Assembly (NCBI RefSeq): GCF_002944315.1
Contig: NZ_CP024311.1
Span: 2,704,501-2,768,500, forward strand
DNA: 64,000 bases
Direction: 5' to 3'
Source of the DNA: Rhizobium sp. NXC24
GTDB taxonomy: Bacteria > Pseudomonadota > Alphaproteobacteria > Rhizobiales > Rhizobiaceae
Shown here: piece by piece, positions 22,324 through 51,619 of the stretch
How positions within the stretch are numbered: position 1 is the stretch's first letter
Layout: each line of letters begins with the position of its first letter
Notes under the pieces: model-generated
The model's database searches: none
The model's input: the letters and a program-made list of their open reading frames with translations, nothing else
What the model was told of the DNA's origin: nothing
Position numbers and translations under genes: made by a program

Positions 22324-24186
22324 CTACTCGGCCTCGGCTGCTATGAAGCCGCCCGACTGGCGCGCCCAGAGTTCGGAATAGAGGCCGCCGCGGGCAATCA
22401 GCTCGTCATGGGTACCCTCTTCGATGATCCTGCCTTTGTCGACGACGATCAGCCGGTCGAGCTTGGCAATGGTGGACAGGCGATGCGCGATCGCAAGCAC
22501 CGTCTTGCCTTCCATCAATGCTTCCAGATTGGACTGCAGCGCGGCCTCGACCTCGGAATCCAGCGCCGAGGTCGCCTCATCCAACACCAGGATCGGCGCG
22601 TCCTTCAGCATGACGCGGGCAATCGCGATACGCTGGCGCTGGCCGCCTGACAATTTGACGCCGCGCTCACCGACATGGGCGGCATAGCCCGTGCGGCCCT
22701 TCTGGTCCTCCAGCGTCGCGATGAACGTATCCGCCTCCGCCCGCCGTGTCGCCTGCGCCATCTGCTCCTCGCTCGCCTCCGGACGACCAAAGAGGATATT
22801 GTCGCGGATGGAACGATTGAGCAGCGCGGTATCCTGCGTCACCATGCCAATCTCGCCGCGCAGCGATTCCTGCCGGACCGCGGCGATGTCCTGTCCATCG
22901 ATCAGGATGCGTCCGCCTTCGAGATCGTAGAAGCGCAGCAGCAGATTGACGAGTGTCGTCTTGCCGGCACCGGAGCGACCAACGATGCCGACTTTCTCGC
23001 CGGCACGAACGGTCAATGAAAAATTGTCTATGACGCCACTGCCGCGACCGTAGTGGAAGGTCACGTGCTCGAAGCGAATTTCCGGATGGACGATCTGCAG
23101 ATCCCTGGCGCCCGGCCGATCGACCAGGCCGATCGGCTCCGAGACCATCTCGGCGGAATTCTGGATCGTGCCGAGATTGCGCATGATCGCATTGAACTGC
23201 GCCATCATGCGGCCGAAGAGCATGTTGAGCCGCAATACCATGCTGAGCGTGAAGGCGACGCCGCCGGTGGAAATCTCGCCCGCAAGCCAAAGATGGATGG
23301 CAAGCGCCGCGATCGTCGTGATCATCACGCCTGACAGGAGGGCCAGCGACGAGCGCACGCCGGTCAGAAGCCGCGTGAAAGGCATGACGGCGGCCAGGAA
23401 GCGATCGAAGCCGTTGCGAATATAATCATCGTTCTGCTCTTCGCGGCCGAAGAGCTTCAACGTCTGGATATTGGCATAGGCATCGACCATGCGGCCGTTC
23501 AGCATCGAAGATGCCTCGGCAGCGTTGCGCGCGTGTCGCCGGATGCGCGGCACGAAATAGCGGGCAAGCAGCGAAAATATGCAGATCCAGATCGCGATCA
23601 CCAGCGCCAGGCGCCAATCAAGCCCGCCGACCAGCGCTATGGTCGAGGCGGCATAGATGATGATGAACCAGACCACCTGCAGCAGCGAGACGACGAGATC
23701 GCCGGTCGATTGCCCCGCCGACCAGACCTTGGTGACGATGCGGCCGGAAAAATCATTCTGGAAGAAACTCACCGACTGGCGCGCGACATGCACATAGGCC
23801 TGCCAGCGCACGAGATTGAGGAAGCCGGGTACGACGACCTGCTCCTCGACCAGCGCCCCGAGGCTGACCACCACGAAGCGGACGACCAGCACGACGAAAA
23901 CCATGCCAAGCAGCGCGCCGCCATGGCCGGAAAGCAACCCTGCCCAGCCCGCTCCCGGCTGCACCTTGTCTAGGATATCGACCAGATGGCCAACGAACCA
24001 GAACAGCGCCGCCTCCAGCACCGCCACTGCACCACCGAGCGCCGCCATCGCCAGAAACGGCCCCTTCGCCTGACCGACATAGTACCAGATGAAAGCCCAA
24101 AGCGACCGCGGCGGACGCAGGTCGCCAGTGCGGTAATAGGGATCAATCCAGGTTTCGAACAGGCGATAGACGGAACGGATCAGCAT
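22324..24186 (-). CDS. ABC exporter half-transporter (fused membrane and ATPase domains)
   Basis: This 620-residue MsbA/MDR-type protein has six membrane helices in about the first 330 residues and a nucleotide-binding domain in the rest. The ATPase motifs are intact: GRSGAGKTT (Walker A), a Q-loop in MVTQDTALL, the signature LSGGQRQRIA and ILVLDEATSALD (Walker B), with the H-loop in IAHRLST. It exports an unknown lipophilic compound as a homo- or heterodimer. It is related to the next ABC gene upstream at 24640-26493; the two may form a pair, but about 450 bases and a terminator separate them. Confidence 0.9.
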   Translation of the reverse strand: MLIRSVYRLFETWIDPYYRTGDLRPPRSLWAFIWYYVGQAKGPFLAMAALGGAVAVLEAALFWFVGHLVDILDKVQPGAGWAGLLSGHGGALLGMVFVVLVVRFVVVSLGALVEEQVVVPGFLNLVRWQAYVHVARQSVSFFQNDFSGRIVTKVWSAGQSTGDLVVSLLQVVWFIIIYAASTIALVGGLDWRLALVIAIWICIFSLLARYFVPRIRRHARNAAEASSMLNGRMVDAYANIQTLKLFGREEQNDDYIRNGFDRFLAAVMPFTRLLTGVRSSLALLSGVMITTIAALAIHLWLAGEISTGGVAFTLSMVLRLNMLFGRMMAQFNAIMRNLGTIQNSAEMVSEPIGLVDRPGARDLQIVHPEIRFEHVTFHYGRGSGVIDNFSLTVRAGEKVGIVGRSGAGKTTLVNLLLRFYDLEGGRILIDGQDIAAVRQESLRGEIGMVTQDTALLNRSIRDNILFGRPEASEEQMAQATRRAEADTFIATLEDQKGRTGYAAHVGERGVKLSGGQRQRIAIARVMLKDAPILVLDEATSALDSEVEAALQSNLEALMEGKTVLAIAHRLSTIAKLDRLIVVDKGRIIEEGTHDELIARGGLYSELWARQSGGFIAAEAE

Positions 24187-24284: not shown

Positions 24285-24540
24285 TCACGGCGCCCTGTCG
24301 TCGACATCCAGAATGCTTTGCAAGTCACGCCGCCCATTCAAGACGCGTACGACGACGAGGGTTTCACCTCGGACAAGGTAATAAACGCGAATTGTCTCGA
24401 AACCCAATACTGTACGCGATCTCAGACCATCGATATCCGGGTTGTCGAAATGGCGAGGCGATCCAGTCAATGGCGATTGTGCAGCAACTGATAAGCATTC
24501 GCGGACCGCTGGATAAGGCCATCATAACCTCCTAATTGTT
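24285..24540 (-). pseudogene. Remnant of a ParE/RelE-type toxin gene
   Basis: The frame open from 24521 to 24285 encodes a convincing C-terminal half of a ParE/RelE toxin: SPRHFDNPDIDGLRSRTV, then FETIRVYYLVRGE and VVVRVLNGRRDLQSIL. It has no ATG or GTG of its own, only an internal TTG at 24470. A good AGGAGG site with ATGATG at about 24522-24540 is in a different frame. The N-terminal ~40 residues and any antitoxin gene are missing, so this looks like an internally deleted, frame-disrupted gene. It lies alone between two ABC exporter genes, and the rest of the gap holds nothing else recognisable. Confidence 0.6.
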
Positions 24541-24639: not shown

Positions 24640-26493
24640 TCATTCCGCCGCCGCCTCGGCCTCTTCGTGGTCCGCCAGGAACCCACCGGACTGCCGGCTC
24701 CAGAGGTCAGCGTAGATGCCGCCGTGCTGGACCAGATCGTGATGCGTGCCCGTCTCGATGATGCGGCCCTTGTCGAGGACGATGAGGCGGTCCATCTCGG
24801 TCAATGTCGACAGACGGTGCGCGATGGCGATCACCGTCTTGCCCTGCATCAGCGCGAAGAGGTTTTCCTGGATCGCCGCTTCCACTTCGGAATCGAGCGC
24901 CGAGGTCGCTTCGTCCAACACCAGGATCGGCGCGTCCTTCAGGAAGACGCGGGCAATCGCGATGCGCTGCCGCTGGCCGCCGGAGAGCTTGACGCCGCGC
25001 TCACCGACCTGAGCGTCGAGCCCCTTGCGACCCTGCATATCCGTCAGCCCTTCGATGAACTCCCAGGCATTGGCGCGCTTGGCCGCCTCGATCACCTCCG
25101 CATCGGTCGCCTCCGGTTGACCATAGGCGATGTTGTCGCGGATCGAGCGGTGCAGCAGCGACGTATCCTGCGTCACCACACCGATCAGCGAACGCAGGCT
25201 GTCCTGGCTCACCTTGGCGATATCCTGGCCATCGATGGTGATGCGCCCGCTTTCGAGATCGTAGAAACGAAGCAGCAGGTTCATCAGCGTCGTCTTGCCG
25301 GCGCCGGAGCGGCCGACGAGACCCACCTTCTCACCCGCATGGATATCGAAGGTCAGGTTTTCGATGACACCATTGGCCTTGCCGTAGTGGAAGCGGACAT
25401 GATCGAAATGGATCGCGCCCTGCTTGGCCGTGATCGCGGGTGCGGCCGGCACGTCGACGATGTCATGCGGCTTCGTCAGCATCTCGATGCCGTCATAGAT
25501 CGTGCCGATGTTCTCGAACAGTGCCGAGACTTCCCACATGATCCATTGCGACATGCCGTTGACGCGCATGGCAAGCCCGATGGCGATGGCGATCGCGCCG
25601 ATCGAGATCGAGCCGCTCAGCCAGAACCAGATCGACAGCGCCGAAATGACGAACAAGGCCACGCAGTTGTTGACGTAGACCGCGATGTAGAACAGCGTCA
25701 CCTTGCGCATCTGCCCGTAGACGGTCTGCAGGAATTCGCTCATGCCTGCTTTGGCGTAGCCCTCTTCGCGGCCTGCATGCGAAAACAGCTTCACCGTCGC
25801 GATGTTCGTATAGCTGTCGACCACCCGTCCCGTCATCGTCGAGCGTGCATCCGCCTGAGCGGCTGCGATCTTGCGCAGTCGCGGCACGAAATAGCTGACG
25901 ATGCCGATATAGATCAGGAGCCATGCGAGGATCGGCAGCATCAGCCGCCAGTCCGCCGCAGCGATGACCAAGATCATCGACAGGAAATAGGTGACGACAT
26001 AGACGAAGACATCGAGGATCTTCATCACCGCTTCGCGCACGGCAAGCGAGGTCTGCATCACTTTGGTGGCGACGCGGCCGGCGAACTCGTTGGCGAAGAA
26101 GGTCATGCTGTGGCGCAGCAGGAAGCGATGCATCTGCCAGCGGGCGATCATCGGATAGTTTCCGAGCAGCACCTGATGCATGATGATGGAGTCGAGCACC
26201 GCCGCGAGCGGCAGACCGACCAGCACCATCGCGCCCATCCAGAAGAGCTTATGCCACTCCGTCTGCAGGAATGTCGCCTTGTCCGCATGCGACAGCCAGT
26301 CGACGATATCGCCCAGGAATTGGAACAAAGCCACTTCGCCGACCGCGATCAGCATGGTGAGAACGGCCATGGCGATCAGCCAGGGCGCGGCCGGCTTGGT
26401 ATAATGCCAGCAGAAGGCAAAAAGACCCCGCGGCGGAACGTGCGGCACTTCGCTTGGAAAAGGGTTTAGTCGCTGTTCGAACCAGCCAAACAT
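24640..26493 (-). CDS. ABC exporter half-transporter with an attenuator-like leader
   Basis: With the ATG at 26493 (GGAG ribosome site) the protein is 617 residues; the open frame extends to 26604 without coding signs. It has six membrane helices followed by an ATPase domain with GRSGAGKTT, a Q-loop in VVTQDTSLL, LSGGQRQRIA, ILVLDEATSALD and IAHRLST, all intact. The MsbA/multidrug exporter type is clear; the substrate is unknown. About 160 bases upstream on the same strand are a 17-codon ORF and a terminator hairpin, so expression is likely controlled by attenuation. A strong terminator follows the stop codon. Confidence 0.9.
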   Translation of the reverse strand: MFGWFEQRLNPFPSEVPHVPPRGLFAFCWHYTKPAAPWLIAMAVLTMLIAVGEVALFQFLGDIVDWLSHADKATFLQTEWHKLFWMGAMVLVGLPLAAVLDSIIMHQVLLGNYPMIARWQMHRFLLRHSMTFFANEFAGRVATKVMQTSLAVREAVMKILDVFVYVVTYFLSMILVIAAADWRLMLPILAWLLIYIGIVSYFVPRLRKIAAAQADARSTMTGRVVDSYTNIATVKLFSHAGREEGYAKAGMSEFLQTVYGQMRKVTLFYIAVYVNNCVALFVISALSIWFWLSGSISIGAIAIAIGLAMRVNGMSQWIMWEVSALFENIGTIYDGIEMLTKPHDIVDVPAAPAITAKQGAIHFDHVRFHYGKANGVIENLTFDIHAGEKVGLVGRSGAGKTTLMNLLLRFYDLESGRITIDGQDIAKVSQDSLRSLIGVVTQDTSLLHRSIRDNIAYGQPEATDAEVIEAAKRANAWEFIEGLTDMQGRKGLDAQVGERGVKLSGGQRQRIAIARVFLKDAPILVLDEATSALDSEVEAAIQENLFALMQGKTVIAIAHRLSTLTEMDRLIVLDKGRIIETGTHHDLVQHGGIYADLWSRQSGGFLADHEEAEAAAE

Positions 26494-26630
26494 GAAATGC
26501 TCCAAAGACTCAGGCCCTTCGGCCACCGCTTCCGCGTCTAAAAGGGATCGCGGACTGATATGGTGGCCGGGTGATGAAAGAACGAGGCCATATCGGCCGC
26601 GCAATGAATCAAAAAAGGGGAAACTTGCAA

Positions 26631-26652
26631 AAACGCGCTTTAAAGCGCCCGC
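26631..26652 (-). terminator. Intrinsic terminator or attenuator after the short ORF
   Basis: On the minus strand the perfect palindrome GCGCTTTAAAGCGC (26648-26635) is followed by GTTTTTG. It begins six bases after the stop of the 17-codon ORF and lies upstream of the ABC exporter gene, so it would cut most transcripts before the exporter unless opposed. Confidence 0.65.
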
Positions 26653-26653
26653 A

Positions 26654-26707
26654 TCATGGCCGCGCGGCCACGGCTCGGAGGCGCATCATCACAAACAAAA
26701 TATTCAT
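26654..26707 (-). CDS. Putative 17-residue leader peptide of the ABC exporter
   Basis: This very short ORF encodes MNILFVMMRLRAVAARP. It has a perfect AGGAGG ribosome site six bases upstream of its ATG, better than those of most genes here. Its stop codon is followed within six bases by an intrinsic terminator, and the ABC exporter starts about 160 bases further on. A GGCCGCGCGGCC palindrome lies within its 3' codons, giving scope for alternative RNA folds. The Met-Arg-Leu-Arg motif at residues 8-11 is like that of macrolide-dependent arrest peptides such as ErmDL. Translation is inferred, not shown. Confidence 0.55.
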   Translation of the reverse strand: MNILFVMMRLRAVAARP

Positions 26708-26890
26708 CTGAGCCTCCTATGTCGCAAGTTGTAGAGCGGTTCTCTTTTACCGTGCATTAATCGCTTTGGAAAGCGAAATGTGCCCAAAAACGCGCCTGAA
26801 ATCTTCAATTCTGCTGATGAAGACATCACAGAAACAAGGGATTCGACAAAAGGCGAAGACAACGCCCGGCAATTTCGTTAGTTGCAGATT

Positions 26891-49786: not shown

Positions 49787-51619
49787 ATGTTTCGTCGCTT
49801 TGAAAAGCTCGTCGATCCATTCCAGTATTATGATGATCTGAACCCGCCGTCGGATTCATGGCGGTATCTTAAAAGCAACCTGCGCCCGTTCCGCTTCGTC
49901 ATGGGAATGAGCCTTGCCCTGACCGTCATCGGTGCGGCGATCGAGATCTGGCTCATCGGCTATACCAGCCAGCTCGTGGACATTCTCGCGGCCGCTCGCC
50001 CGGATCAACTTTGGGCGTCCCACGGCGCCGAATTGCTGGCCGCCGCCGCCCTTGTGCTGATCGGGCGGCCGCTCGCCGGCTATATCAGGGAAAGCCTCGA
50101 CGACATCGCGTTTCGGCCGAATGCTGAGACCCTGTTCCGCTGGCGGGCTCATCGCCACGTCCTGCGGCAATCCGTCGGCTGGTTCCGCCAGGACTTTTCC
50201 GGACGCATCGCCAGCCAGGTGCGCGACATCGGCAATTCCGCGACCGGAGCAGCCTATGCGGTGCTGCACACGCTATCCTTCGTCACGATCTATGTCGCCG
50301 GCTCGCTATGGCTCATGGCTTCGATCGATCTGCGTCTCATCTGGCCGTTGCTCGTCTGGATCTGCTGCTACCTGGGTCTGATGGCATTTGTCATACCGCG
50401 GCTCCGCCGGGCGTCCGAGGAGTTTCAAGGCGCCTATGCCTCCCTGACGGGCATGCTGGTCGATACCTACGCCAATATCGATGTCATAAAGCTCTTTGCC
50501 AATGCGGCCGAAGAAGACCGTGAAGAGCGGGAGCGCTTCGCCGCTGCCCGCAGGAAGTTTGTGCGCGTGCAAAAGCTCGAAGTCATGGTGAATTCGAGCA
50601 TGCTGTTCCTGGGCAGCTTTCTTATCGTCGGCCTGGTCGGCTATGCCGTCATCCTTTGGCAGGCCGGCAGCGCGCCGCTCGGCCTGATTGCTGCTTCGCT
50701 CGCCTTGAGCTTCCGCATCACCGGCATGGCGGAATGGATGCTCGACGCCGTCTCGTCGCTGTTCGGCCATCTCGGCGCTATGCGGCAATCGCTGCTGACT
50801 GTGGCACAGCCGCTCGCCATTACGGATGAACCCGATGCCCGCCAGCTCATAGTCAACGGCGGCGCCATCACCTTCAACTCCGTGACGCATCATTACGGCA
50901 AGGGCAATGGCGGTCTGGACGGCGTTTCGCTGCAGATCGCACCCGGCGAAAAGGTCGGCCTTGTTGGCCGCTCCGGCACCGGCAAGTCGACACTTGTCAA
51001 TCTGCTGCTGCGGTTCTTCGATCCGGAAGCAGGCTCCATCGAGATCGACGGACAGAATATCCGCGGGATCGCCCAGGAGAGCCTGCGCAGACAGATCGGC
51101 ATGGTGACCCAGGACGCTGCCCTGCTCCACCGCCCGGTTCGCGACAACATCACCCATGGCGACCCCCGCTTCTCCGACAGCGCGATCGCAGCGGCGGCGG
51201 ACAAGGCAGCCGCAAGCGGCTTCATCGCAGCTCTCCGGGATCATGAAGGCCACACCGGCTACGACGCCCATGTCGGCGAGCGTGGCGTCCAGCTATCGGG
51301 CGGACAGAGGCAACGCATCGCGCTTGCCCGCGCCATCCTGAAGGACGCGCCGATCCTGGTGCTCGACGAGGCGACGTCGGCTCTCGACTCGGAGGTGGAG
51401 GCCGCCATCCAGGATACGCTCTATGGTGTCATGGATGGCAAAACTGTCATCGCGATCGCCCACCGCCTGTCGACCATCGCCCGCATGGATCGCATCGTCG
51501 TCCTCGATGAAGGGCGGATCGTCGAAGACGGTAGCCACGACGATCTGCTCGCGCAAAACGGCATCTATGCCGCATTGTGGGCACACCAATCCGGCGGCTT
51601 CATCGGCGACGATGTCTAA
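49787..51619 (+). CDS. ABC exporter half-transporter
   Basis: The 610-residue protein has six membrane helices and an ATPase domain with an intact GRSGTGKST Walker A (near 395), a Q-loop in MVTQDAALL, the signature LSGGQRQRIA and ILVLDEATSALD with IAHRLST. It is the same MsbA-like class as the pair at 22-26 kb. The ribosome site GGAGGG is partly inside a small hairpin. A promoter and a short leader ORF lie upstream. The substrate is unknown; drug or lipid export is typical of the family. Confidence 0.9.
   Translation: MFRRFEKLVDPFQYYDDLNPPSDSWRYLKSNLRPFRFVMGMSLALTVIGAAIEIWLIGYTSQLVDILAAARPDQLWASHGAELLAAAALVLIGRPLAGYIRESLDDIAFRPNAETLFRWRAHRHVLRQSVGWFRQDFSGRIASQVRDIGNSATGAAYAVLHTLSFVTIYVAGSLWLMASIDLRLIWPLLVWICCYLGLMAFVIPRLRRASEEFQGAYASLTGMLVDTYANIDVIKLFANAAEEDREERERFAAARRKFVRVQKLEVMVNSSMLFLGSFLIVGLVGYAVILWQAGSAPLGLIAASLALSFRITGMAEWMLDAVSSLFGHLGAMRQSLLTVAQPLAITDEPDARQLIVNGGAITFNSVTHHYGKGNGGLDGVSLQIAPGEKVGLVGRSGTGKSTLVNLLLRFFDPEAGSIEIDGQNIRGIAQESLRRQIGMVTQDAALLHRPVRDNITHGDPRFSDSAIAAAADKAAASGFIAALRDHEGHTGYDAHVGERGVQLSGGQRQRIALARAILKDAPILVLDEATSALDSEVEAAIQDTLYGVMDGKTVIAIAHRLSTIARMDRIVVLDEGRIVEDGSHDDLLAQNGIYAALWAHQSGGFIGDDV

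Follow-up and report, generated by a model that had tools for sequence, protein, structure and literature searches.

The leader of an ABC exporter gene in Rhizobium sp. NXC24 is probably a cis-acting, translation-status attenuator of the kind described for duf1127_1, placed here ahead of a Rhizobiaceae exporter. Comparison among related loci argues for the short leader open reading frame (ORF) and its position, for two helices (P2 and P1), for conservation at the RNA level and for a design matching that of DUF1127 leaders.

A short leader ORF precedes an ABC exporter gene

In the window (the whole 64,000-nucleotide stretch that was analysed), a 17-codon leader ORF, MNILFVMMRLRAVAARP, was read directly on the minus strand, with its ATG at 26707-26705, its TGA at 26656-26654 and an AGGAGG SD at 26718-26713. 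The ATG of the ABC exporter lies on the same strand at 26493-26491, 160 bases past the leader ORF stop. A sequence-only reading of this DNA had reported a 17-codon ORF with a perfect AGGAGG site about 160 bases ahead of an ABC exporter, and both statements agree with ours, the ORF being conserved in all 79 loci compared. The palindrome GCGCTTTAAAGCGC (26648-26635, minus strand) that it placed behind the stop is likewise present, followed by G and T5 (26633-26629), but it is separated from the stop by 5 bases and not six. The features of the locus are as follows.

26744..26751, minus strand: -10-like box GGTAAAAG of the leader promoter, a candidate recognized by eye
26722..26730, minus strand: P1 5' strand AACTTGCGA, from the window fold, two-sided change by lineage and per-lineage RNAalifold
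26713..26718, minus strand: SD AGGAGG of the leader ORF; GGAGGC (26717-26712) is the P2 5' strand
26654..26707, minus strand: leader ORF MNILFVMMRLRAVAARP*, with a 16- to 23-codon ORF in 79/79 loci compared
26677..26682, minus strand: GCCTCC within the Arg-Leu-Arg codons, the putative anti-SD and P2 3' strand, from P2 pairing statistics
26656..26671, minus strand: predicted P3 hairpin GTGGCC-GCGC-GGCCAT in the last codons of the leader ORF, from the window fold and the consensus in lineages R1, N and S
26635..26648, minus strand: palindrome GCGCTTTAAAGCGC, a weak hairpin with T5 at 26633-26629, terminator-like by rule
26622..26630, minus strand: P1 3' strand TTGCAAGTT, from the window fold, lineage comparison and RNAalifold
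24640..26493, minus strand: ABC exporter, a TMD-NBD half transporter of 617 aa and the gene behind the leader, from Pfam PF00664 and PF00005

From the putative -10-like box, the transcript would start about 30 nt 5' of the leader ORF. Counterparts of this box, GGTAGAAG or GGTTAAAG, were seen by eye upstream in some relatives, and the promoter scan of the window listed no sigma-70 consensus at 26744..26751. The exporter carries the Pfam domains ABC_membrane (PF00664) and ABC_tran (PF00005); among proteins of solved structure, MDR-type ABCB transporters are closest to it in sequence, and it falls below the cut-off of every NCBIfam model among the best 25 of 187. Upstream of the leader lies the divergent trmL, and a second ABC gene (22324-24186) follows downstream behind a hairpin that is terminator-like by eye. 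Between both ABC genes there is a 61-codon ORF (window 24285-24470, minus strand), which we take to resemble a ParE/RelE-type toxin fragment. The window also contains a third related exporter of the ABC type (locus L003, plus strand, about 49787-51616), which shares 42% identity with the first.

The leader ORF is conserved among close genera

The window and 80 named relatives were compared, yielding 79 nonredundant loci after the near-duplicates L026 and L076 were dropped; by hand, the choice of leader ORF was corrected at L016, L035 and L039 and that of L083 was supplied. An ORF of 16 to 23 codons with a strong SD precedes the orthologous exporter gene in 79/79 loci. A rule-based search (ATG, 14 to 26 codons, SD-like word, 330 bases before the gene) recovered an ORF in 78/79 loci on the sense strand and in 12/79 on the antisense strand, the sole sense-strand miss being the hand-added L083, with its GGGGG-like SD. 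The near-invariant columns of the alignment are the SD, the ATG and the bases of a GCC..C word in codons 8 to 11. Judged by this comparison, the leader ORF is real.

The exporter itself is present in 281/297 genomes of the family at E 1e-190, and in 107/109 genera. The extension sample comprised 60 more upstream stretches, from 20 and 40 genomes chosen by exporter identity. Because the ORF was found in 19/20 genomes with 71 to 78% identical exporters (18 genera, some species repeated from the main set) and in 8/40 with 62 to 70% identity (rule: SD match of at least 6, 14 to 30 codons), it appears to be near-universal in close genera and patchy farther out. In S. meliloti, the ORF before the ABC gene is the 18-codon MTVLMLTRLPRVTRPFLA. 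One contig labelled Pleomorphomonas, from a metagenome bin (L050), carries a Rhizobiaceae-type exporter and leader and is probably mis-assigned.

An RNA word rather than a peptide is kept in codons 8 to 11

The kept element in codons 8 to 11 is the RNA word GCCUYC, from which RL, SL, NL, CL, HL and RF, among others, are read; in L069 it stands, by reading, in a shifted frame. The wobble base of the Arg codon, one of the two most conserved bases of its stretch, is C in 75/79 loci, and the first base is C in 66/79. Over 78 related pairs, codons 8 to 11 differ at positions 1, 2 and 3 in 34, 37 and 12 cases, respectively, and synonymous changes make up 3 of 58 single changes versus 14.7 expected, a count whose 78 pairs are not mutually independent. 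Since third positions vary least and synonymous changes lie below the random expectation, what is conserved at codons 8 to 11 appears to be RNA and not peptide. Codons 2 to 7 show mild amino acid conservation (33/71 synonymous versus 17.4 expected), and the end of the ORF shows little (38/118 versus 30.8). The codon usage of the leader ORF (-0.97) is near that of untranslated DNA (-1.11), early exporter codons having -0.68.

MRLR occurs in 3/79 peptides, RLR in 10/79 and any R/K-X-R/K in 27/79. The Arg-Leu-Arg arrest motif that the sequence-only reading had seen in the window peptide is thus not borne out by the relatives, in which the RNA is kept instead; what looks like an Arg-Leu-Arg "stalling motif" in a short ORF can be the by-product of an RNA hairpin.

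Predicted RNA structure of the leader

In P2, the SD (GGAGGC) would pair with GCCUYC in the codons of its own ORF. Pairing holds in 90.5% of 474 cells versus 48 to 61% when slid, the covariation score is 0.219 versus 0.177 in shuffled data, and double-change cells number 15 versus 5.5; the number of pairs with double changes, 3 versus 2.1, was not above that of shuffles in the 79 loci. By computed pairing, 5 or 6 of the 6 pairs can form in 76/79 ABC leaders and in 11/11 DUF1127-type leaders.

P1 would enclose the ORF, joining a strand before the SD to one at or behind the stop, and both of its sides change between lineages: ACUUGCGAA/UUCGCAAGU in the lineage of the window, CGCGAACCG/CGGUUUCGCG in Sinorhizobium, AACGCC/GGCGUU in Neorhizobium, AUCGCC/GGCGAU in R. 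leguminosarum relatives (inside the ORF there), CACGCA/UGCGUG in Ciceribacter and UCGAGA/UCUCGA in A. vitis. A locus's own helix exceeds the cross-lineage mean in 73/79 loci, and the best ungapped helix ranks among the best 5% of swaps in 29/79 and the best 20% in 52/79; by duplex energy, a weaker test, 24/79 loci fall within the best 5% of cross-lineage swaps. Among 40320 lineage permutations, 9 were equally good, the true one included, in a test that is partly circular since the eight lineages were drawn from kinship together with the P1 strands. In lineages A and O, the match with other lineages is better than the match within the lineage.

Per-lineage RNAalifold covered four lineages and 55/79 loci, leaving out lineages A, C, V and O and loci L048, L050, L069, L082 and L084. 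It predicted P1, P2 and P3 together in three lineages (R1, N and S); for R2 it gave P2 and a terminator-like hairpin, with the closing helix placed differently from the manual P1 reading. No pair was predicted by RNAalifold on the whole 79-row alignment, and Rfam returned 0 matches above gathering score in the window and four relatives, with one chance-level hit (E 2.8).

Further hairpins were seen nearer the gene. One, GCGGCC...GGCC (window 26585-26605, minus strand), stands behind the pyrimidine tract, and RNAalifold predicts it at the corresponding position in lineages R1, R2 and N, its stem sequence varying. In Sinorhizobium-type loci (L042, L044, L045, L061 and others), the exporter SD may be part of a hairpin, CCUUCCUUCA...UGAAGGAG, which suggests, as a model, a second, translational layer of exporter control in that lineage.

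Terminator-like hairpins and folding with masked ribosomes

Taken alone, a hairpin with a T run is not above chance, with 8 sites on both strands of a 10-kb stretch versus a mean of 9.2 in shuffles. Across the leaders, a simple rule of hairpin plus T run finds sites in 36/79 loci overall versus 16.6 expected from shuffles: 2/13 in the window's lineage (the window and L009), 15/17 in R2, 4/17 in the Sinorhizobium type and 6/13 in the Neorhizobium type. Because it is present in 2/13 loci of the window's lineage, the intrinsic terminator does not appear to be a general device, and the terminator claimed earlier is not a conserved one. In R2, termination may be intrinsic, since terminator-like hairpins occur in 15/17 loci; there the stop codon lies inside the hairpin, the tail is U rich and the stem sequences change. 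The alignment upstream of orthologous exporter genes, which the sequence-only reading had proposed, shows its short ORF to be conserved, but neither its peptide motif nor its hairpin with T run.

Ribosomes were modelled as masks in folding. The predicted probability of the window hairpin is 0.86 in the free RNA and 0.26, 0.68 and 0 when the ribosome covers the start, the RL codons and the stop, respectively; a stall at the RL codons, which had been thought to undo the hairpin, would leave it mostly formed. The start mask brought no hairpin lowering in lineages N, A and O (n = 5, 4 and 2, respectively). Throughout masked folding the exporter SD is mostly paired (mean unpaired 0.01 to 0.34 by lineage and state); switching of this SD by a ribosome on the leader ORF was considered and rejected, as no consistent change appeared across the modelled states. 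Rut-like clustering of C after the stop reaches the 5% level in 2/79 loci, the other 77 not going beyond shuffles. On average over the 79 loci, codons 3 to 10 have C 0.33 and G 0.21 and the 45 nt after the stop have C 0.32 and G 0.21; the window alone has C 0.17 and G 0.25 in codons 3 to 10 and 10 C and 11 G in the 45 nt after the stop.

A parallel design ahead of duf1127_1

The leader of duf1127_1 in Sinorhizobium meliloti 2011 (sORF26) has been dissected experimentally (PMC12218461, 2025). According to that report, the SD of its uORF can pair with the uORF's own C-rich codons; RNA and not peptide matters; start-codon loss or synonymous change of codons 3, 5, 9 and 10 leads to derepression; tetracycline and chloramphenicol induce; mutation of a predicted intrinsic terminator was without effect; and Rho is only presumed (PMC12218461). 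As judged from sequence, our locus L176 appears to be this published leader. It encodes a 29-aa uORF, and its gene starts 249 nt after the uORF ATG, which with the stated 30 nt between transcript start and uORF gives a 279-nt leader; C11 and A15 are present, TCCAAGGC stands directly past the stop, and codons 9 and 10 are CGC CTC, Arg-Leu. Codon 17 and a terminator-like word differ from what PMC12218461 gives. L176 lies in genome G257; the exporter uORF of this genome encodes the same peptide as its counterpart in S. meliloti 4H41.

DUF1127-type leaders precede duf1127_1-like genes at 11 loci (L176, L189, L204, L207 to L210 and L212 to L215). In these, the SD-to-ATG distance is 11 and the anti-SD follows the ATG by 22 to 27 bases; among ABC leaders, the corresponding values are 10 to 12 in 75/79 and 22 to 25 in at least 64/79, and base composition is alike in both types. 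A search for further duf1127_1-type loci found a uORF in 7 of 8 matches, L211 being the eighth. The source genome carries both leaders, the exporter type and the duf1127_1 type (L210, contig 4 near 416284-416774). The uORF of the latter begins MKSIVMFRRFSGG..., and its SD, GAGGAGGCG, stands opposite CGCUUCUC; the protein behind it shares 57% identity with its duf1127_1-type counterpart in L176 and is absent from the listed matches of a Pfam DUF1127 search.

The pattern GGAGGC-ATG-GCCTCC occurs at 2 places in the source genome and a looser one at 7, of which 5 were read: the window leader, three long-gene starts and one 27-codon ORF. In this last ORF (contig 4:1812080), the SD GGAGGC stands opposite GCCTCC; the ORF overlaps a longer antisense ORF, and no gene was found close behind it. 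Such patterns miss weaker pairings, for example, the DUF1127-type leader of the same genome. Matches elsewhere (6 genomes, or 9 besides the source genome with the looser pattern) comprise exporter leaders, DUF1127-type leaders, long genes and further short ORFs. A long gene beginning MGQKINPIGFRL, taken for rpsC, shows the same SD...CGCCTC arrangement at L191, L192 and L206 (G061, G103 and G057), which could be chance within coding sequence.

Proposed mechanism and alternatives

In the proposed attenuator, the transcript would begin about 30 nt before the short ORF with its perfect SD. Without timely ribosome loading, the SD would pair with GCCUCC in codons 9 to 11 (P2), and P1 would close the leader around the ORF. 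A translating ribosome would open P2, thereby freeing the anti-SD codons and the pyrimidine-rich stretch behind the stop, and the freed element would, by analogy with the duf1127_1 leader, allow premature termination in healthy cells, presumably through Rho. With a drug-held ribosome at or near the start codon, or with no ribosome, the element would stay hidden, and transcription would read through into the exporter. The transcript start, the direction of control, the part of Rho and the inducing drugs are what we infer here; a drug response of the exporter leader is plausible.

An attenuator built on an intrinsic terminator, the hairpin and T run behind the leader ORF, is unlikely in our judgment. 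It would account for the window hairpin with its T5, for the R2 hairpins with their changing stems (15/17) and for the 36/79 loci versus 16.6 expected, and in the model the window hairpin drops from 0.86 to 0.26 under a start mask and to 0 under a stop mask; yet the rule finds no site in 11/13 loci of the window's lineage, the start mask produces no lowering for N, A and O (n = 5, 4 and 2), and in the duf1127_1 leader mutating a comparable predicted hairpin had no effect (PMC12218461). Less probable again is a leader that acts on mRNA stability or on basal translation, or gives rise to a small RNA, with no ribosome sensing and an ORF that merely opens structure. The mostly paired exporter SD in all modelled states and the hairpins recurring between leader ORF and gene are consistent with such a leader, whereas the near-invariant SD and ATG, the matching anti-SD and the parallel with a tested sensor would be left unexplained.

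Macrolide-dependent nascent-chain arrest at MRLR, freeing the exporter in an ErmDL-like manner, is very unlikely: the window peptide does contain MRLR, but relatives mostly lack it (MRLR 3/79, RLR 10/79, any R/K-X-R/K 27/79), RNA and not amino acids appears conserved at these codons, and a modelled ribosome at the RL codons leaves the hairpin mostly formed (0.68). R/K-X-R/K sequences are known macrolide stall sites (PMC12121999), a point in favor of such arrest. From the drug-responsive attenuator proposed earlier, a ribosome-dependent, possibly drug-responsive switch is thus likely to remain, and its macrolide arrest is unsupported. That reading knew of no description of such a device; a leader of this design ahead of a DUF1127 gene appeared in print in 2025 (PMC12218461), and among open papers we found none describing the exporter leader.

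Beyond the translation-status attenuator at this locus, self-caging uORFs could be ribosome-status sensors of one class across the Rhizobiaceae, a single RNA design having been independently placed, or copied, before a multidrug-type exporter and a DUF1127 gene, so that general translation stress and not contact between drug and peptide switches on efflux; we hold this wider view tentatively, with slightly less than even confidence. If true, the published single case (duf1127_1) becomes a class, ribosome status gains a direct link to an exporter conserved throughout a large bacterial family of soil and plants, and efflux answers any translation inhibitor without a drug-specific peptide.

A possible expression record in S. 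meliloti

In S. meliloti (L061), the two ABC genes are adjacent and precede an ORF taken for petA. The closed relative G138 served as the map for gene tags of strain SM2011, anchored at rpsC (1.150 Mb) and at cold-shock genes (1.801 and 2.306 Mb); the pairing of the cold-shock genes with tags was our choice, and we take the RS21190-21315 block to be the ribosomal-protein cluster. With tags from PMC8632152 and PMC10117765, interpolation put RS23660 at about 1.707 Mb, the ABC ortholog of G138 lying at 1,681,143-1,682,993. By this interpolation, SM2011_RS23660, which PMC12218461 gives as a tetracycline-induced ABC gene, is probably the exporter ortholog.

Comparison with known systems

ErmDL and ErmCL are macrolide attenuators with a leader ORF before a resistance-type gene. 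The exporter leader resembles them in having a leader ORF before a resistance-type gene and MRLR in the window peptide; unlike in ErmDL and ErmCL, the peptide motif is not conserved here and the RNA word is. The window peptide resembles TnaC in its MNIL... start and RP-stop end, and TnaC-like arrest was rejected as the peptide end is variable and within P3. An amino acid leader peptide of the trp or his type was also rejected, the codon listing having no run of one amino acid's codons. The S. meliloti trp attenuator rnTrpL/peTrpL is rich in Trp codons, and unlike it, the exporter leader ORF has no Trp-codon run. Both combine a leader ORF with attenuation in the same bacterial group; rnTrpL/peTrpL is leaderless (PMC10117765), whereas the exporter leader ORF has an SD.

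As PMC12121999 describes it, the toiL uORF of E. coli topAI, like the proposed leader, mediates a multi-class ribosome-drug response via RNA structure. It has 8 codons, belongs to a toxin-antitoxin operon and base-pairs with the regulated gene's SD, whereas the uORF of the exporter leader would pair with its own SD (PMC12121999).

The closest likeness is to the duf1127_1 leader, which is known from experiment, the exporter leader being known from sequence comparison alone. The downstream gene is an ABC exporter here and a DUF1127 gene there; the uORF has 16 to 23 codons in exporter leaders and 29 to 34 in DUF1127-type leaders; and P1, P3 and, in some lineages, terminator-like hairpins belong to exporter leaders, in which alone P1 and P3 were sought. 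Both leaders have a short uORF whose SD, GGAGGC, would be caged by its own early codons CGCCUC (often Arg-Leu), and they are alike in favoring RNA over peptide, probably in the pyrimidine-rich stretch past the stop and in their similar spacing. The leader design is thus already known from the 2025 work on duf1127_1, to which a widely conserved exporter case is added here.
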